64,000 bases of DNA from a bacterium. Its GTDB lineage: Bacteria; Hinthialibacterota; Hinthialibacteria; OLB16. The notes under the pieces are model-generated. The model worked only from the letters and a program-made list of their open reading frames with translations, was not told the DNA's origin and did not search any database. Where the stretch lies: positions 124,001 through 188,000 of the forward strand of contig JAJVIK010000013.1 in NCBI GenBank assembly GCA_022072055.1, given 5' to 3'. How positions within the stretch are numbered: position 1 is the first letter of the stretch; every line of letters starts with the position of its first letter. A program made the position numbers and the translations under genes. This document shows, piece by piece, positions 19,115 through 33,818 of this stretch.

Positions 19115-20059
19115 ATGCCGTTTCGGAACACGCGCTCCCTGGTCGCCGCTCTTCTTGTCCAATTGCTTCTCTTTCTGCCTGGGGCGGAGGCCCGCCGGCA
19201 CCGTCAACACATGCTCCCCAACGCCAAGAAGGTCGCCAACCTTCGCACAGGCACCAACGCCTGCATCATTTGCCATGTCACCACCAATGGGGACTCCGAC
19301 CGGAACGCCTTCGGCCAAGATGTGGAGGAGATCACTGGAAGTGAGGATAACGATGTGGCTTTCTGGGGTCCCGCCCTGGCCGCGATGGACTCCGATGGCG
19401 ACGGATACACCAACGGCGAAGAGCTTCAGGATCCGACTGGACTAGCCCTCCAAGCGCTTTTCAACAAGCCGCTTGACCAGGACTTTCCCCGGCTCTCCCC
19501 AACCCCTTCGCTGAATTCCCTGCTGATTGGGAATCAGGATCTGGTGAGCCATCCGGGAGATCCGAACAGCACCCCGCCACCCCCATCCGGACCCACGGTC
19601 ACGGAGACTCCCGTTCCTCCCTCGGCGACTCCGACCCCTTCGCCTTCTTCGACCGAGACCTCAGCTCCCAGCTTCACTGCAACGGAAACCGCAACCGAAA
19701 CGACCGTCGAGGAGCCTTCCAGCACCGAGACCTCAACGCACACGGCAACCCTCACCCTGGTCCCATCCGACACCTTGATCAGCACCCCATCTCCCACTGA
19801 AACCTCAACTCTTGAGGCCACTGCGACGTCCACAAATGAGCCAACAGTGACCCAGACCGTGGCAAACTCTGTGACAGCCACCTCAACCCTTTCCGGAGGC
19901 GAGGACACCCCGACCCCGACCCAAACCACCTTGGATTTCAACCGCGATGCATTCCCGATCATTGATGCGCGCGACCTCGAGAAGCTCTTGGGTGAGGGAA
20001 TGACTCCTGAGAACTGGTTCCTCTTTGCCGCTTTTTGGAGGTCGGCCAATCTGCCTTAG
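19115..20059 (+). CDS. Secreted CxxCH protein with Ca-binding repeat, TPS linker and dockerin-like end
   Basis: This 314-residue exported protein has a signal peptide at 1-26, then a c-type haem motif CIICH (residues 50-54). A calcium-loop repeat of thrombospondin type 3 or EF-hand style follows ([17 protein letters not shown], about 91-107). A Thr/Pro/Ser-rich linker spans roughly 150-270, and a C-terminal segment [19 protein letters not shown] resembles one half of a dockerin. The short N-terminal domain around the haem motif has no recognisable cytochrome fold, so haem attachment is inference. It precedes the PSD/DUF1501 cluster by 313 bases on the same strand. It is probably periplasmic or extracellular. 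Confidence 0.7.
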
Positions 20060-20372
20060 AATTGCGGAGAATGTCGCCGGGTGGAGATCCCGAAGCCTCA
20101 TGAGAGAGACCGAAGAGCCAGTCGCCCGCGCAAGGAGCGGCCCGGATTGTGGAAGCCGGTTCGGGCCGCTCCATCCGCCTTTCGCACGCACCGGTGCAAG
20201 GTCGAGCTCGGGTTATGGTATGGATCATGCTGGGCTTGAAGGTCACCTTAGCGGCATGAATTGCCTCTCTCTCGCCTGGGCACACAGGGGTTGCGGGATC
20301 GCGCGCGAGCGCGTCCATCCCCGACCGCCGAACCGTTGAGTCGGAGTTTCAAGGAGCGAGGCGCCACAATTC
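20060..20372. other. Intergenic region with strong hairpin
   Basis: No gene is supported in these 313 bases. A perfect 11-base inverted repeat (arms 20134-20144 and 20162-20172, loop 17) lies 75 bases past the preceding stop, and a perfect ten-base palindrome GCACCGGTGC sits at 20188-20197. The next gene's GAGG site is at about 20359. Confidence 0.5.
20134..20172 (+). terminator. GC-rich hairpin, possible terminator
   Basis: Arms GGAGCGGCCCG and CGGGCCGCTCC pair perfectly. No U-tract follows, so intrinsic termination would be weak; it may instead protect the 3' end of the upstream mRNA. Confidence 0.3.
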
Positions 20373-22100
20373 ATGATCGGGCCAATAACGGACCGGGGAA
20401 CCCATAGAGGGGCCGCCCTTCCCTTCCTCCGCCGCGCGATCCTGTGCGCCACCCTCGCTTGGGCCGCCGCGCCGGCTCACGCCGAACCGCCGCTCACCGA
20501 AACCGGCAAATACATCCTCGTTCCCACCAACGAATATGTGGTCCGGATGGCCATGGACCTCCTCGGCGCGCATCCGACAGTGGAACAACTCGATGGGGTG
20601 CTCCAGGGCACGCTCCCCATCGAGGACCTCCTCAGTCAATTCCTGGATGACCCCCGGTTCCACCGGCGACTGGAGTGGATTGCCAACGATTTCTTCCTCA
20701 CCGAGCGGATCAATGTGCCCTTCTTCCAAGAAGCCCTTGGGGAAATGGACGAAGAGGAAGCGGCCGCCTCGCTCGGCAAGGAGCCGCTTAAACTGTTCTC
20801 ATACTTGGTCGAGCACGACCTCCCGATGACCGATCTGGTGACCGCCGACTACACCATCGCGGACTCCACCTTGGCGTCCTTCTGGAATATCGACTACCCC
20901 GGACCACCCGGCGGCTCCGAGTGGCTCAAGGCGCGCTACCGGGATGGTCGCCCCCATGCCGGCGTGCTTTCAATGCAGTCCTTCTATTACCGCTACGGGA
21001 GCACCGCCTCCAACAAGCAGCGTGGGCGCGCCAACGCCATCACGCGGATTTTCCTCGATGATGACCACTTCCAGCGCAATGTGGCCTTCGAGTTTCGCCT
21101 CGCGGCCAATCAGGAGGCCGACCTGGACCGCGCGGTCCGCTACAACCTGGGGTGTCTTGCCTGTCACGCCTCCTTGGAGGGAGTCGTGGCTCATCTTCAG
21201 GCCATTCAAATCGGCCCGGTCGGTGATGACATCGAGGACCGTGATGATTTTGAACACTACAGCAAGCAAGGGGTCGAACGCTGGCAGCTCATCAATGAGC
21301 GGGTTCCGGCCTATTACGGTCGCCCCAGCGACGGGAATCTGAAGACCCTTGGAGGTTACATCGCGCAAGACCCTCGTTTCGCGCTCACTCTCACCAAGCG
21401 GGTCACCGGGAGTCTCACCCAAACCACGCTCGACCACAGGGACCGTGACCTGCTCCTTGCGCTAAACGATGTCTTCGTGCAAAGCGGGTTTCGTCTCAAG
21501 GACCTGGTGCGCGCGATTGCGCGCTCCGATTATTACCGCGCGGCGGGCGCCACTCCGCCGGCGAGCCCGGAGGAGGCCCGCAACCTTCAACCCTTCCGGA
21601 TGGCGACTCCCGAACAGATGGCTTCGCTATGCATGGACCTCACCGGCCAGACCTGGGGCAACCGGGAACGTCCCAGTCTCGAATACGATCCCGAGTTCAA
21701 GATACCCGCGGGGGGGTATGACGGCGAGGTCATCACCAAGCGCAGCTTCGCGATCACGCCGATCTATCTCCTCACCTATCAGCGCAATGCCGAGGCGCTG
21801 GCCAACGCGGTCTACAACGCCGAACTCACCGGAAACGAGCCACCGGTCGAGGAACGCAAGGTTTTCACTCTGATCAGCGGGCGCGAGGACCCGGTCGCCA
21901 ACGCCGCCGCGGTCCGAGCTCAAATCGCGCATTGGTTCAAGCGCTTCTATGGGGAGTCCGTATCCCCTGATGGTCCGGAGGCGACTCAAATCTACAACCT
22001 CCTGCTGGACTTCCGCGCGGACCGTGGGAACAACACCCGCCAGGGGTGGAGGGATGTCCTCGCCCTGCTGCTACGAGACCCGAAACTCTATTTTTATTGA
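20373..22100 (+). CDS. Exported haem-motif protein paired with DUF1501 (PSD/DUF1800-type partner)
   Basis: The 575-residue exported protein has a signal peptide ending near residue 37 (AAPAHA). It is mostly helical with a single c-type haem motif CLACH near residue 262 (RYNLGCLACHASLEG). The arrangement of short helices with 'FLDDPRFHRR' and 'LVRAIARSDYYR' recalls the DUF1549/1553/1585/1592 and DUF1800 families of planctomycetes, which are habitually encoded beside DUF1501 proteins, exactly as here. The biochemical role of this pair is not established. Its stop lies 11 bases before the DUF1501 ATG, indicating one operon. The RBS is GAGG about ten bases upstream of ATG 20373. Confidence 0.65.
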   Translation: MIGPITDRGTHRGAALPFLRRAILCATLAWAAAPAHAEPPLTETGKYILVPTNEYVVRMAMDLLGAHPTVEQLDGVLQGTLPIEDLLSQFLDDPRFHRRLEWIANDFFLTERINVPFFQEALGEMDEEEAAASLGKEPLKLFSYLVEHDLPMTDLVTADYTIADSTLASFWNIDYPGPPGGSEWLKARYRDGRPHAGVLSMQSFYYRYGSTASNKQRGRANAITRIFLDDDHFQRNVAFEFRLAANQEADLDRAVRYNLGCLACHASLEGVVAHLQAIQIGPVGDDIEDRDDFEHYSKQGVERWQLINERVPAYYGRPSDGNLKTLGGYIAQDPRFALTLTKRVTGSLTQTTLDHRDRDLLLALNDVFVQSGFRLKDLVRAIARSDYYRAAGATPPASPEEARNLQPFRMATPEQMASLCMDLTGQTWGNRERPSLEYDPEFKIPAGGYDGEVITKRSFAITPIYLLTYQRNAEALANAVYNAELTGNEPPVEERKVFTLISGREDPVANAAAVRAQIAHWFKRFYGESVSPDGPEATQIYNLLLDFRADRGNNTRQGWRDVLALLLRDPKLYFY

Positions 22101-22111
22101 GGATGGCGAGA

Positions 22112-23371
22112 ATGGACAGGCGACACTTTCTCAAGCACATGGCGGCGGTGGCTTCTGGCGGGATTTGCACCCCCGAGTTCCACCGCTTATTCGCCCTTGC
22201 GCAGAAGGGTTTGGACAACCCGCATTTCTTTCTGTTCATCTTCGCGGGTGGCGGCTGGGACATCACGCAGGTGTTTGAGTCCGATAAGGAGGGACTCCAG
22301 ACGGTGGATGTCCCCACCGGAACGCGAACCCAGTTCGGCTTAACCCCCAACGACACCTTCTGGAACGATCCCCAGGGGCGACCCGCGGTGACTCAGTTCT
22401 TTCAGGATTTCGGGGATCGCACCGCGATTGTGAACGGGGTCAATGTCCGCACCCTGAGCCATGACCTCGGGCGGGAGATGGTCCTGACCGGAAGCATGGG
22501 AAACAACGCCGCCGATTGGCCGACTCAGATCGCGGCGCGCAAGGCCTCCGACAAGCTCCTCCCACACCTGGCAATCTCCGGCCCCTCGTTCGCGGGAACC
22601 TTGGGGGGAATCACGACCTCGGGATCAACCTTCAATCGTCTGCTCTTTCCGAATGGATACACCCCGACCTCCGAGCAGGACTCCCAAATGGAGACCTATC
22701 TCGATCAGCGCCTGGCTCATCTCCTGGACACGGCGCAAGAGCGCGGTTTCACGACCGGGCGCGCCGATGAGCTTGCGAGCGGTTATCTGCGTTTCGAGAA
22801 CATTAAGACCACCCGAAACGATCTCAACTTCCAAGGAGGGGGTTTCACCAACCAGGCGCTTTCCGCAATCAACGCATTTCAGAACGGGATCAGTGTGACC
22901 GCCACCCTTTCCGCCCCCGGAGGGTACGACACCCACAACGACAACAACCCACAGCAGGCCAACAACTTTCAGCAGACCTTTGCGGGTCTCAACACGATTG
23001 TGACCCAACTGGCCTCGCGCCCCGGCGCCACCGGGACCGGGACGCTGCTGGATCAGACCACGGTGTGCCTGCTGTCGGAGTTCGGAAGGACCCCGCGTCT
23101 GAATGGGGACGCGGGCAAGGACCACTGGCCGGTCACCAGCTTGATGTTTGTCGGAGGTGGAATTCGCGGGGGACGGGTCTTTGGGGGAACCGACACCAAC
23201 CAGAACCTCCGCAAGGTCGATTTCACGACCGGGCTGCCGGATGACGCGAACGGGCTGGAGTTGAGGACTCCGAGCATCGGGGCGGCGCTGCTCGCCCTTG
23301 CCGGGATTGACCCGACGCCGATCCTGCCGGGAATCCCGGTGTTCACCCCGCTTGTGGACTTGGGGGCCTGA
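22112..23371 (+). CDS. DUF1501 family Tat-exported protein
   Basis: This 419-residue protein starts MDRRHFLKHMAAVASGG, a twin-arginine signal, implying export in folded form. The body shows FLFIFAGGGWDITQVFE and a C-terminal LLSEFGRTPRLNGDAGKDHW, the metal-binding arylsulfatase-like core of DUF1501 proteins. Their reaction is unknown; the fold relates them to alkaline-phosphatase-type hydrolases. ATG 22112 is chosen because GAGG lies nine bases upstream; ATG 22103 is possible. It lies between two haem-motif genes, and its stop shares its A with the next gene's leader. Confidence 0.88.
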   Translation: MDRRHFLKHMAAVASGGICTPEFHRLFALAQKGLDNPHFFLFIFAGGGWDITQVFESDKEGLQTVDVPTGTRTQFGLTPNDTFWNDPQGRPAVTQFFQDFGDRTAIVNGVNVRTLSHDLGREMVLTGSMGNNAADWPTQIAARKASDKLLPHLAISGPSFAGTLGGITTSGSTFNRLLFPNGYTPTSEQDSQMETYLDQRLAHLLDTAQERGFTTGRADELASGYLRFENIKTTRNDLNFQGGGFTNQALSAINAFQNGISVTATLSAPGGYDTHNDNNPQQANNFQQTFAGLNTIVTQLASRPGATGTGTLLDQTTVCLLSEFGRTPRLNGDAGKDHWPVTSLMFVGGGIRGGRVFGGTDTNQNLRKVDFTTGLPDDANGLELRTPSIGAALLALAGIDPTPILPGIPVFTPLVDLGA

Positions 23372-23375
23372 GGTG

Positions 23376-24983
23376 ATGCTCCGCCGCGCGCTCATTCCCG
23401 CCCTCGCGCTGTTTCTCGGCTCCTTGACCTGGGCCGCGACTCCTCCCACTTACGAGAATTTCGCAGAGCGGTTCTTCACCACCTATTGCACCAGCTGCCA
23501 TCACTCGACACGTCCCCCGGAGGAGCGTCACGGCGCGCCCGAGGGCATTGATTTCGACAACCTCGAACTGATCCGGGAGCAGTGGGACGCCATCGCCGGG
23601 GCGGCGCTGGGCGAGGAGCCCTTCATGCCCCCCGCCAATGGGGTCTGGGACTGGGACCGCGCGCTCCTGGCTGAGTGGATCGCGGCGGAGCTCCCCGGCG
23701 AGGGCGAGGAACACCTCCCCGCCAAGGAACTCCCTCCGCCCGGAGAGATCAGCCGGTGGTATGAACGGATGCGGATGGATGTCACACGTCCGAGCGGGAT
23801 GCCCACCAACCAGCGCAAGGTTCACATTGTCGGACTTCAGCATTTCACCGGCAAACAGAATGTATTGGAGGAGGACATCGAACTCCGCCGCGAGGCGGAT
23901 GCGTCGGTGGTCCTCCTGAGCCAGCGGCGACGTCGCGATGGAGTCCCGACGAACCCGTTCCTGAAGTACATCTACAACCCGCCTGTTCCCGTGGTCTTCG
24001 CCGACATGCGGGCCGGGCAAAGCTGGGAGCAGACGGTTCAGGCGACTCCCCGCTTTGATGACGGCTCCACGGGCCCGGCGGCGAGCATCAGCTTCCGGGT
24101 CACGGCCGAAGGCTTGGAGACTTTGGATAACGGGGTCGGGGCGCCGGTGGAGGCGTTCCGGGTTCGGATCAAGTCCCACAACCCGAACGACCGTCGAAAC
24201 CCGGACTCGGAGGAGATCTGGTGGTTCTCCATTGGCGCCGGTCCGGTCCGCTTCGCGCGAGTGGTCAGCCCCCTGCTTTACACCGATGTTCCGAACGCGG
24301 TCGCAGGGATGGACAAGGCGTATCTCGCCGCGGCCCCTGAGATTCGCAACGACACCCAGTCGTACTTCCCCTTTGAGAATGGAACGCGGGTGTACAGTTT
24401 CGAGCACCAGCGCAAGATCTATCTGGACGGGCCGCCACCCGGAGAGCCAACGGAAACTCCAACGCTCGGTCCGGATTACACGCGCACCCGCACACCCTCC
24501 CCGACAACGACTCAGTCCTTCACGGTGACTCCCACACCAACCAGGACGGGAACCGACACGGCGACACCGCTCTTCACCGGAAGCGCCACCGAAACCCCGT
24601 CGCAGTCCGCCAGCTCCTCGGAGACCCCACCGCCCTCCGAGTCCCCGACCGCAGGCGCGAGCGCCACGGAAACCCCCAATCTTTCCCCAAGCGAGACTGT
24701 GTCCACGACGCCAACGGAGACCCCCACAGCCAGTCGGGTCGCCACCGAGACGCCGGAGGCCACGGAAACACCGGAATGGAAACCGGAATACGCGGATCAA
24801 GATGGGAACAGTCTGGTCAACGGCACGGACCTACTCATGCTCTTGGGTCACTGGGGCATGGAGCCGCCTCCCGACCTTTCGGGAGATCCGCCGCCGGGCG
24901 ACCCAGGGCGGTCGGACATGAACTCAGATGGAGAGGTGTCCCTGCTCGATCTCTTGGGATTCGCCTTGGAGTGGGAGCGCTAG
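23376..24983 (+). CDS. Secreted CxxCH protein with TPS linker and dockerin-like C-terminus
   Basis: The 535-residue exported protein has a signal peptide at 1-20, a haem motif CTSCHH (residues 38-43) in an N-terminal cytochrome-like domain with a possible distal Met in PFMPPANG, and a middle beta-rich domain (about 150-370). A Thr/Pro/Ser linker of about 110 residues follows. The C-terminal 55 residues contain two calcium-loop-plus-helix units (DQDGNSLVNGTDLLMLLGHW and DMNSDGEVSLLDLLGFALEW), an excellent dockerin type I pattern. It starts four bases after the DUF1501 stop. The beta domain resembles copper type II monooxygenase or PSD accessory folds only loosely. It is probably displayed on the cell surface. 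Confidence 0.75.
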   Translation: MLRRALIPALALFLGSLTWAATPPTYENFAERFFTTYCTSCHHSTRPPEERHGAPEGIDFDNLELIREQWDAIAGAALGEEPFMPPANGVWDWDRALLAEWIAAELPGEGEEHLPAKELPPPGEISRWYERMRMDVTRPSGMPTNQRKVHIVGLQHFTGKQNVLEEDIELRREADASVVLLSQRRRRDGVPTNPFLKYIYNPPVPVVFADMRAGQSWEQTVQATPRFDDGSTGPAASISFRVTAEGLETLDNGVGAPVEAFRVRIKSHNPNDRRNPDSEEIWWFSIGAGPVRFARVVSPLLYTDVPNAVAGMDKAYLAAAPEIRNDTQSYFPFENGTRVYSFEHQRKIYLDGPPPGEPTETPTLGPDYTRTRTPSPTTTQSFTVTPTPTRTGTDTATPLFTGSATETPSQSASSSETPPPSESPTAGASATETPNLSPSETVSTTPTETPTASRVATETPEATETPEWKPEYADQDGNSLVNGTDLLMLLGHWGMEPPPDLSGDPPPGDPGRSDMNSDGEVSLLDLLGFALEWER

Positions 24984-30975: not shown

Positions 30976-33477
30976 TCACCGTACCGGCTCGATATCCTCC
31001 ATCCAGAAAAAAGGATAGAAGTAAGGGCTTCGTCCGAAGGGTGGACCGGAGTAGCTCGGGGAAGCGCGCGAGCTGCCGAAAGTGTAGACCCCTCCGAACT
31101 TATCAAGTGTATAAATCCCATCCCCTGTTCGACAGAACTCAATGTCCACGAAGATGGAATTCACGTCCGCGGAGGATTCGGCCTCGTTCGGAACTGTTTC
31201 GGGATCATCAAAGCCAACGGTCACATAGGGCATGCCGACCGTGGTGAGCGGGATGTGGCTGTCCACGGCGGTTTCGTTGCGGAGGAACCGGACATAGGAC
31301 TCTTGCCGCGCGGGAACAGGATGGATCCCGCCCCAACCATCCAAGACCACGAGCGAGGTGGGAGGGTTCCCGATGGGATGGACCTCGATATCGCGCGCGA
31401 TGTCGAGCCCAGGGAAGAAGGGAAAGGGAAGATTCGGATCGAGCAACTGTTCGCTAGACGCACCGATGCCACGACCACCGTGGCTGTCGCGTATCGAGTT
31501 CCCTTCTCCATCAAAGACATAAGTTCCGCCCTGTGAGTCCATGAGGATGAATCCATGTGGCATGGCGTTGTTCCCGCTCTCGATCACCACCAAACCCACC
31601 GCGCGAATGGTGGCGCCATCATTGGGATCGGTGAACCTGGAACCCCGCATCGGACCGAAGGGAATCGGGAGCATATCGCAAAGATCATCGGCGTCATTTC
31701 CGAGTTGCGGGTCACCCGGATCAGCATTGCCGCCACGGAAGATTCCACCGCCCTCGGTAAGGACCCAGAAGGAGAGTGAGTCGGCGCTCATCACCAGGTC
31801 CACGGCAGGGCCGCAGGGGGTGTTACCCGCTGGGAAGGCGAAAGATTGAGGCGGTGAAGAAGGCGGATCGGCAATGAATCGGACCACGCCAAAGTGATCC
31901 AGGATGGCGAGGTCCGGATTCCCTCCCGAGCTGCTTGCCAGTTCCATGTCGCCAAACAACTTCCGCCCAGGTGTGATAGCGGAACCTGAAATGTCAGGCG
32001 GATGGCCAACCGGGATGTGCTCCCCGAAGGAGGTCAGGAGGTAATAGCCGATGTCATCGCACGGGGCGAGGGTTTCGGTCGGGGAGGGGGTTGGGGTCGG
32101 AGTTCTGGTGTTGCGGAGGGTTCTTGTCGGAGTTTCAGAGAGGGTAGCAGTGTGTGTGGTGCTCGACCTTGGAGTCGGCGTTCTGGAGACGCAGGGAGCC
32201 GGTCCTTCGGGGAGAATTTGTATGGCTGCCTCGACCTCCCTGAGGAGAGGCGAAATATGATCTCCCAAACCAAACAGATAAGCCTCGCTATTAATGACCA
32301 CCCCCAATGAGTGATCCTCCTCAGAGCCTTGAAATGAAACGTCTATGCTCCGTCCTTCCGAACCAGGGTCAACAAGAGTCACATCGAAGGTGAAGAGACA
32401 GAGATTTCCAGAAGCGTCGATTCGGACGGGGGGCGGATTGGCATTCTCCCACTTAATCAAGTTTCCGGAAACGGCCCCCCTTAAGTTGGCGGGATTCTCT
32501 CCTCGTATTCCACAGGCATCCAGAGAAGGTCGCATGTTTCGTTCATCCGGAACGAGAACCGGCAAATGTGGATGGCTTAGATCCCTAAAACGGATGGCTG
32601 TAAAGTTGGAGCTGATCGCCAATCCAGGCGCAGCGTTCAAGACGACCTCTCCGAGGATTTGCGGTTCGCACGGCTCAGTAGTCAGCTCGGACTGAATTCC
32701 AGGTGAGAATCGGTCGAGGTCGATGAGGACAGTGGGGGGTTCGGGTGTATGAGTTCGCGTCGCGGTTGGGGTGGTCGGCGTCGGTGTAGGCGAAACAAGG
32801 GGAGTAAGCGTGCGCGTAGCACTAAGACTTGGAGTCGGCGTTCTTGTCTCAGAAGGAACGGGCCCTTCACGGAGAATTCGCAAGGTGCCCTCCACCTCCC
32901 CAAGGAGGGGCGAAACAAAATCTCCCAAACCAAACAGATGAGCCGCGCTATTGATGACCACCCCCAATGTGTCATCCTCCTCGGAGCCTTGAAAGGAAAC
33001 TTCAATATTTCGTCCTTCCGAACCAGGGTCAACAAGAGTCACATCGAATGTGAAAAGACAGACAACCCCTGGAGGTTGGACAGTGACCGCTCCTTCAGAA
33101 CGCACGATATTGCGCCACCTGATCCCGTTTGCCGAGAACATTTCCTCAAAGTTGGCTTCTGTGGTGGGAATTCCACAAGCGTCCATGTCCGTGTTAGGCG
33201 CATCCGGAACAAGAACTGGATTTCCGGCTTGGTTCATATCCCGAAAGCGTAGGAGCGTTGAATTGGTTGCTACCATATTCCCGGGCAAGGCTTCCAAGAC
33301 AACCGCTCCGAAAACTCGCAGCTCACTTCGCTCCGTTACCAGCTCGGACTGAATTCCAGGTGAGAACCGGTCAAGGTCAATCAAAACGGTCGCGCATCCC
33401 CCATTGTCCACAGTAAGAACTAAGGAAACACTTATTAGGAAAAACGGATGGATGGTGCAACGTTCCGCGTGGCGCAT
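30976..33477 (-). CDS. Secreted protein: two cohesin-like domains, TPS linkers, C-terminal beta-propeller
   Basis: This 833-residue exported protein starts at ATG 33477 (AGGAGG upstream; the frame is open to a TTG at 33504). After a signal peptide (about 1-28) come two tandem domains of about 190 residues, both opening VLIDLDRFSPGIQSEL and ending with CLFTFDVTLVDPGSEGR. They are separated and followed by Thr/Pro linkers. The domain shape, a beta sandwich beginning with 'PGIQ', suggests cohesin-like or carbohydrate-binding modules. The last 330 residues show six variants of a strand pair with the pattern [LV]LD-x2-GG-[VI] (VLDGWGGIHPV, TLDKFGGVYTF), likely a six-bladed propeller. No catalytic residues are evident. 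A surface binding or scaffold role is inferred. Confidence 0.75.
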   Translation of the reverse strand: MRHAERCTIHPFFLISVSLVLTVDNGGCATVLIDLDRFSPGIQSELVTERSELRVFGAVVLEALPGNMVATNSTLLRFRDMNQAGNPVLVPDAPNTDMDACGIPTTEANFEEMFSANGIRWRNIVRSEGAVTVQPPGVVCLFTFDVTLVDPGSEGRNIEVSFQGSEEDDTLGVVINSAAHLFGLGDFVSPLLGEVEGTLRILREGPVPSETRTPTPSLSATRTLTPLVSPTPTPTTPTATRTHTPEPPTVLIDLDRFSPGIQSELTTEPCEPQILGEVVLNAAPGLAISSNFTAIRFRDLSHPHLPVLVPDERNMRPSLDACGIRGENPANLRGAVSGNLIKWENANPPPVRIDASGNLCLFTFDVTLVDPGSEGRSIDVSFQGSEEDHSLGVVINSEAYLFGLGDHISPLLREVEAAIQILPEGPAPCVSRTPTPRSSTTHTATLSETPTRTLRNTRTPTPTPSPTETLAPCDDIGYYLLTSFGEHIPVGHPPDISGSAITPGRKLFGDMELASSSGGNPDLAILDHFGVVRFIADPPSSPPQSFAFPAGNTPCGPAVDLVMSADSLSFWVLTEGGGIFRGGNADPGDPQLGNDADDLCDMLPIPFGPMRGSRFTDPNDGATIRAVGLVVIESGNNAMPHGFILMDSQGGTYVFDGEGNSIRDSHGGRGIGASSEQLLDPNLPFPFFPGLDIARDIEVHPIGNPPTSLVVLDGWGGIHPVPARQESYVRFLRNETAVDSHIPLTTVGMPYVTVGFDDPETVPNEAESSADVNSIFVDIEFCRTGDGIYTLDKFGGVYTFGSSRASPSYSGPPFGRSPYFYPFFWMEDIEPVR
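32202..33393. repeat. Intragenic tandem duplication (two units, about 660 bp apart)
   Basis: The two cohesin-like domains are also repeated at DNA level. Near-identical blocks occur at both ends of each unit (around 33340-33390 and 32685-32735; around 32870-33030 and 32210-32370), separated by about 659 bases. This indicates a recent duplication or ongoing gene conversion. Confidence 0.75.
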
Positions 33478-33818
33478 CGCTGCCTCCTGAAACCCAATCG
33501 ACAACTGACCAAAATCCTGGGCGGATGGACCACAAATTAAGGAAGTTCGGTCACATTGTTAGGATTGCGACCTTAGGGGAAGATTCTACAGGCTTGGGGG
33601 TTCTAAATCAAGTAGAAGATTGCCGGAATTGGATTGGATCTGCAGCCCGAAACTCGGTGCTGAGATATTCCGGGAGACAATGGGGCCTTTCGAGGCACGT
33701 GATAATACCCACAAGACCCACTCTCAACGCGCCGCGAACATCTCCCTCACTGTCCCCGCCAGCTCCGACGGCGAAACAGTCACCTGTCCCACCTTGCCAG
33801 ATTTACTAGGTCCCCCCG
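33478..33818. other. Intergenic region, no supported gene
   Basis: This 341-base stretch between the propeller gene's start and the GH28 gene's end is less GC-rich than its surroundings around 33520-33640. A minus-strand frame ending at 33724 could be a decayed remnant, but it has no start or homology. No convincing promoter for the propeller gene was identified. Confidence 0.4.

Follow-up and report, generated by a model that had tools for sequence, protein, structure and literature searches.

Can a locus in which three exported proteins bearing the haem motif CxxCH surround a DUF1501 protein be understood as an extracellular redox system, and how much of it belongs to a module that is already known? 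Nothing is known of the function of the PSCyt/PSD genes (PMC5615132). Together with their DUF1501/DUF1552 neighbours, these genes are numerous in planctomycetes and verrucomicrobia. The locus in question occupies positions 19115-24983 of the window, by which we mean the whole 64,000-nucleotide stretch of DNA that was analysed, and its features are as follows.

19115-20059, + strand: gene 1, 314 aa, an exported Temptin_C-domain protein with a Pro/Thr linker and a degenerate dockerin-like tail (ORF, Pfam)
19262-19276, + strand: CIICH motif of gene 1 (translation)
19931-20056, + strand: C-terminal tail of gene 1, dockerin-like and degenerate (loop inspection)
20373-22100, + strand: gene 2, 575 aa, an exported protein of the PSD4/DUF1592-DUF1588-DUF1585 type (Pfam, homologues)
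21153-21167, + strand: CLACH, the internal motif of gene 2, flanked by the PSD4 and PSD2 parts (alignment)
22103-23371, + strand: gene 3, 422 aa, a divergent DUF1501 protein whose signal bears the twin-arginine motif RRHFLK (Pfam, motif)
23376-24983, + strand: gene 4, 535 aa, an exported protein with a cytochrome c-like domain, a beta-rich domain, a Pro/Thr linker and a dockerin (ORF, homologues)
23487-23501, + strand: CTSCH motif of gene 4, in the context CTSCHH (C38, C41 and H42 invariant in 5/5 homologues)
23625-23627, + strand: Met84 of gene 4, in MPP (invariant in 5/5 homologues)
23748-24446, + strand: beta-rich domain of gene 4, without a Pfam match (profile search)
24789-24956 (also C6:148789-148956), + strand: two-loop type I dockerin of gene 4 (Pfam, loops)

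The four co-oriented reading frames follow one another in the order Temptin-CxxCH, PSD-CxxCH, DUF1501 and cytochrome-CxxCH, and with gaps of 2 bases between genes 2 and 3 and 4 bases between genes 3 and 4, genes 2-4 form a tight operon. Gene 1 lies 313 bases upstream of gene 2, and a search of this interval for a terminator-like site found none. The motifs CIICH, CLACH and CTSCH, reported by the first-pass annotation in three exported proteins, are present in the translations of genes 1, 2 and 4; its placing of DUF1501 in their middle is right in that they flank it, although as the third of four genes it is not strictly central. Once about 25 signal residues are removed, these three proteins contain 2, 3 and 2 cysteines, and shuffling the mature sequences yields a CxxCH in 5e-5 (gene 1), 2e-4 (gene 2) and 5e-5 (gene 4) of trials. 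These frequencies, together with the retention of the motif in the homologues read of all three genes, a point on which the first-pass annotation had made its reading depend, argue that the motifs are not there by chance.

The identity of gene 2 sets the frame for the comparison with other genomes. Its match to PSD4/DUF1592 exceeds the Pfam cut-off (27.7 versus 23.3 bits), and those to PSD2, PSD1 and PSCyt2 all fall below theirs; an identity as PSD1/DUF1553 plus PSCyt2/DUF1549 was rejected at 17.5 versus 28.5 and 13.5 versus 29.8 bits, so that the PSD/DUF1553 pairs chosen earlier for comparison belong to the wrong sub-class. The internal motif reads CxxCH in 6/6 close homologues and in 16/16 distant PSD homologues that align over the column, including the two-motif proteins of loci L099 and L101, and it lies elsewhere in six further distant homologues. 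CLACH, at the DUF1588 position, aligns with the CASCH/CANCH of L101 and L099. An N-terminal CxxCH is absent from gene 2, the cytochrome c domain being found on gene 4 instead. Over the motif region, the PSD profile gives weak matches to chains of cytochrome c; searched singly, genes 2, 3 and 4 gave no sequence relatives in the PDB, and neither did L099 or L101. At about residues 320-385 of gene 2 (20373-22100), the same profile also picks up linker domains of phycobilisomes among PDB entries (best 3e-8), a similarity that hints at the fold of PSD2/DUF1585.

The assignment of gene 3 to DUF1501 (PF07394) is clear, at 76.6 bits against a cut-off of 27 with 158 residues matched. Its twin-arginine motif is visible by eye, with a sub-threshold score in the Pfam TAT model (14 versus 22.7 bits). 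Residues H120, D276, H278, D340 and H341 are invariant in 9/9 divergent homologues and D53 is kept in 8/9, a set that fits a putative metal site. When hand-separated sequence sets with trimmed signal peptides were compared by hhalign, the C-terminal part of DUF1501 matched sulfatases at 92.9% over 95 columns and DUF1501 matched DUF1552 at 93.2% over 328 columns, against 0.1% for unrelated controls. This supports, and falls short of proving, an alkaline-phosphatase/sulfatase-superfamily fold, the superfamily in which domain databases also place DUF1501. The AlphaFold model of DUF1501 has a pLDDT of 36.7, too low for fold comparison. The genome (5.86 Mb, 32 contigs) contains 20 DUF1501 matches in total, most of them canonical full-length copies. 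One of its loci (L021, 6651-9559) shows a second type of DUF1501 pairing, with a DUF1800-like protein and without any CxxCH; hhalign found no match between DUF1800, represented by one sequence, and PSD. For pairs of DUF1800 and DUF1501, some of which lie beside chitin synthase genes, the literature reports export by Tat and no known function (PMC5122149).

In gene 4, the signature of class I cytochromes c is found, namely CxxCH followed by a conserved methionine, and by analogy with that class Met84 is likely the distal haem ligand. None of the Pfam cytochrome c models exceeds its cut-off, the best being Cytochrome_CBB3 (E 0.012, in 2/5 members). The beta-rich domain that follows matches no Pfam family at E<=10; its strong matches are confined to three genera of one family, with one marginal match elsewhere (5e-4). 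An AlphaFold model of the protein is poor (pLDDT 45.0), and Foldseek with that model gave nothing at E<=0.001. The C-terminal dockerin scores 24.1 bits for Dockerin_1 (PF00404), marginally above the cut-off of 22.9, and both of its calcium loops match at 5/5 positions. The first-pass annotation had seen dockerin-like ends on two proteins, which is borne out for gene 4 and too loose for gene 1, whose tail has no Pfam match and, instead of two loops and a PF00404 score above cut-off, offers a single degenerate loop in which, read in one possible register, 4/5 positions agree. The three cohesin-like matches of the genome are weak, at about 24-25 bits, and cohesin-like domains lie near C5:312-315 kb. 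Locus L053 (7097-10577) encodes three adjacent cohesin-like proteins, two carrying dockerin-like tails of their own, and judged by these similarities they are possible docking partners. The idea that the tail is a universal export tag was discarded, since only about 14 of some 330 sampled ORFs, a sample chosen in part for dockerin hits, bear one. Elsewhere in the window (30976-33504, - strand), an 842-aa protein contains two near-identical repeats beginning VLIDLDRFSPGIQSEL, with Pro/Thr linkers between. Judged by title and abstract, the papers in the library searched that combine dockerin, planctomycetes and cytochrome apparently do not treat this subject.

Gene 1 matches Temptin_C (PF24784) over residues 26-108 with 48.4 bits against a cut-off of 27, and also, weakly, an NCBI diheme family. 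All Temptin_C homologues of the class whose ORFs were read keep the CxxCH, among them the orthologue at L050 (3491-4348), a CITCH Temptin protein adjoining the same operon. At another locus of the class (L118, 1372-2988), one protein joins a Temptin_C CxxCH domain to a dehydrogenase domain of the glucose/sorbosone (PQQ-type) kind, which hints that Temptin_C in bacteria may act as an electron carrier. A second Temptin_C protein of the window genome (L107, 1357-3261) combines DUF5666 repeats with another dockerin-like tail.

The operon is not confined to this locus. A paralogous three-gene version without gene 1 lies in the same genome (L022, 6143-11030), and among 14 genomes of the class strong matches fall in the same family only: L048, L049 and L051, which reaches a contig end, are of the three-gene type, and L050 is of the four-gene type. 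Both sub-types are held by the window genome and by MAG OFTM149 (filed as Omnitrophota), and the duplication thus probably predates the genera. In the MAG that contains L050, a further contig (L162) opens with a gene 4 fragment that ends in a two-loop dockerin and is probably the remainder of the gene 4 cut off in L050; the tails of the three-gene type have one loop, eroded in L049. The core of PSD with internal CxxCH, DUF1501 and cytochrome c recurs in two other genera of Candidatus Hinthialibacterota, to which Hinthialibacter belongs, and more remotely elsewhere.

Among 386 sampled genomes, the gene 2 profile found relatives in 13, and a broader profile in 18. In nearly every readable distant locus the PSD gene adjoins a DUF1501- or DUF1552-like gene; for part of these loci the DUF1501 profile used had also taken in sulfatases and DUF1552, and its hits there are to be read as DUF1501/DUF1552/ALP-like. 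In L147 and L148 the neighbour is a Tat-type protein without a Pfam match. The position of the cytochrome varies. PSD proteins with an N-terminal CxxCH occur in L096, L097, L099, L101, L104 and L105, whereas PSD proteins without one have a separate same-strand CxxCH protein nearby in L098, L103, L146, L147, L148, L150, L154 and the Hinthialibacterota operons; both arrangements occur in L097, neither in L151, and L149 ends at a contig edge. It is mainly this fused-or-separate pattern which suggests that the cytochrome domain of gene 4 works with gene 2 and which makes it look like the N-terminal domain of canonical systems, set apart on a protein of its own. At L097 (4751-11253), a separate CIYCH protein is accompanied by a cytochrome-PSD fusion with CBM60 and by DUF1501, and the separate protein ends in a JDVT-CTERM-like stretch scoring well under that model's cut-off. 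By presenting cytochrome, PSD and DUF1501 as independent expressible units, the split operon makes the function of the module easier to test, and it reveals which parts travel together.

The locus is real and conserved, and most of it can be explained as the split form of a module already known. Additions to that module are the Temptin_C partner, the dockerin tail of gene 4 and its beta-rich domain, which has strong matches only in this lineage. With a probability of about 0.5, we read this split PSCyt/PSD and DUF1501 module as an exported electron-transfer complex around a metallo-hydrolase-like protein. Gene 3, a predicted metal-binding member of the alkaline-phosphatase/sulfatase superfamily, would fold in the cytoplasm and be exported by Tat, while genes 1, 2 and 4 would leave by Sec and have haem attached by system II. 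Gene 2 would bind haem c through the CxxCH in its interior and would pair with gene 3, the two forming the constant pair, and the N-terminal His/Met cytochrome c of gene 4 would carry electrons to or from it, the job of the fused domain in canonical systems. Outside the inner membrane, the dockerin of gene 4 would tether that protein to a calcium-dependent partner, and gene 1 would be an accessory, probably an additional CxxCH electron carrier. Such a complex would likely oxidise or reduce a substrate, or exchange electrons with another exported enzyme, during the breakdown of external polymers.

Several observations lead to this reading. The cytochrome maturation genes on which the first-pass annotation had staked its case are present, ResB and a protein of the CcsA type being encoded side by side (L052) as system II, and so is TatC. 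To these are added the conservation of CxxCH, the duplication of the operon and its recurrence in the two other genera, the adjacency of PSD to DUF1501/DUF1552 with a cytochrome fused or nearby, the hhalign results for DUF1501, the two-loop dockerin on gene 4 and its probable orthologue, and the carbohydrate-binding modules on PSCyt genes (PMC5615132; CBM60 in L097). Counted against it are the weak Cytochrome_CBB3 match, the want of an evident distal ligand in genes 1 and 2, L151 without a separate cytochrome nearby, the weak cohesin-like scores and the want of an LPMO10. An extracellular redox system, as the first-pass annotation proposed, is supported in part and is the best reading in view of the maturation genes and conserved motifs. 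The dockerin would suggest that a redox protein docks in a calcium-dependent way, and one could speculate further that three haem-c sites are arranged around the alkaline-phosphatase-superfamily protein in a complex docked at the surface, with the dockerin plugging the cytochrome into a scaffold; we regard this extended form as rather unlikely, and if true it would be the redox counterpart of a cellulosome component.

Alternatively, the DUF1501 protein itself could do the chemistry, as a sulfatase- or phosphatase-like enzyme stripping side groups from external polymers, with the haem proteins peripheral, for instance in protecting or maturing it. The profile similarity to sulfatases, the sulfatases near PSCyt genes in verrucomicrobia (PMC5615132) and the existence of DUF1800 and DUF1501 pairs without CxxCH all speak for such a hydrolase system, yet the adjoining of a CxxCH-bearing PSD to DUF1501/DUF1552 in nearly every locus read suggests more than a peripheral role, and we hold it to be improbable. 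One may doubt instead that every motif binds haem: the CxxCH of gene 1, and perhaps of gene 2, could be a disulfide or metal site, given that the domain of gene 1 is named after Temptin, an animal secreted protein, and that neither protein has an evident distal ligand. This seems quite improbable in light of the full CxxCH kept in the Temptin_C homologues of the class, one of them fused to the dehydrogenase, and of the weak matches of gene 1 to an NCBI diheme family and of the gene 2 motif region to cytochrome c chains. We are slightly more sceptical still of an extracellular respiratory conduit, which would route electrons through the three haem proteins to an external acceptor and give DUF1501 an accessory role. 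It would account for three consecutive CxxCH proteins and for a cytochrome with a surface-type tail, whereas each protein has a single haem motif, and neither a multihaem wire nor a porin-cytochrome gene was seen among the neighbouring ORFs.

The electron-transfer reading can finally be set against known systems. LPMO10 was considered as the electron acceptor and dropped, none having been found in the window genome. Cbp2D and Cbp2E of Cellvibrio japonicus and TERTU_2913/3803 of Teredinibacter are secreted multidomain redox proteins linked to the use of polysaccharides (PMC8981238, PMC10916295, PMC12542752). They resemble the present locus in a His/Met cytochrome c domain (X183) and a second CxxCH domain of novel sequence (X132), and differ in that carbohydrate-binding modules replace the dockerin and, in the excerpts consulted, no DUF1501 partner is mentioned. 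The isolated His/Met X183 of Cbp2D is reported to be able to reduce an LPMO, and a figure legend names an N-terminal part of X132 'DUF1687' (PMC8981238, PMC10916295).

Closer are the seven split loci L098, L103, L146, L147, L148, L150 and L154, from unrelated genomes, which share the split cytochrome, the single internal CxxCH in PSD and a DUF1501-like or Tat-type neighbour; their cytochrome proteins carry other extra domains and no dockerin was seen in them. PSCyt genes may in turn carry carbohydrate-binding modules, and in verrucomicrobia lie near sulfatases, their function being unknown (PMC5615132). The canonical PSCyt3/PSD (DUF1592-1588-1585) systems with DUF1552/DUF1501 (PMC5615132; L099, L101) have the same internal CxxCH column in PSD and, like the window operon, an adjacent Tat-type DUF1501/DUF1552 gene and a cytochrome c domain. 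In those systems the cytochrome is fused to PSD, whereas here a gene of its own encodes it together with a beta-rich domain and a dockerin; the locus also has an extra Temptin_C CxxCH protein, and its DUF1501 belongs to a divergent branch.
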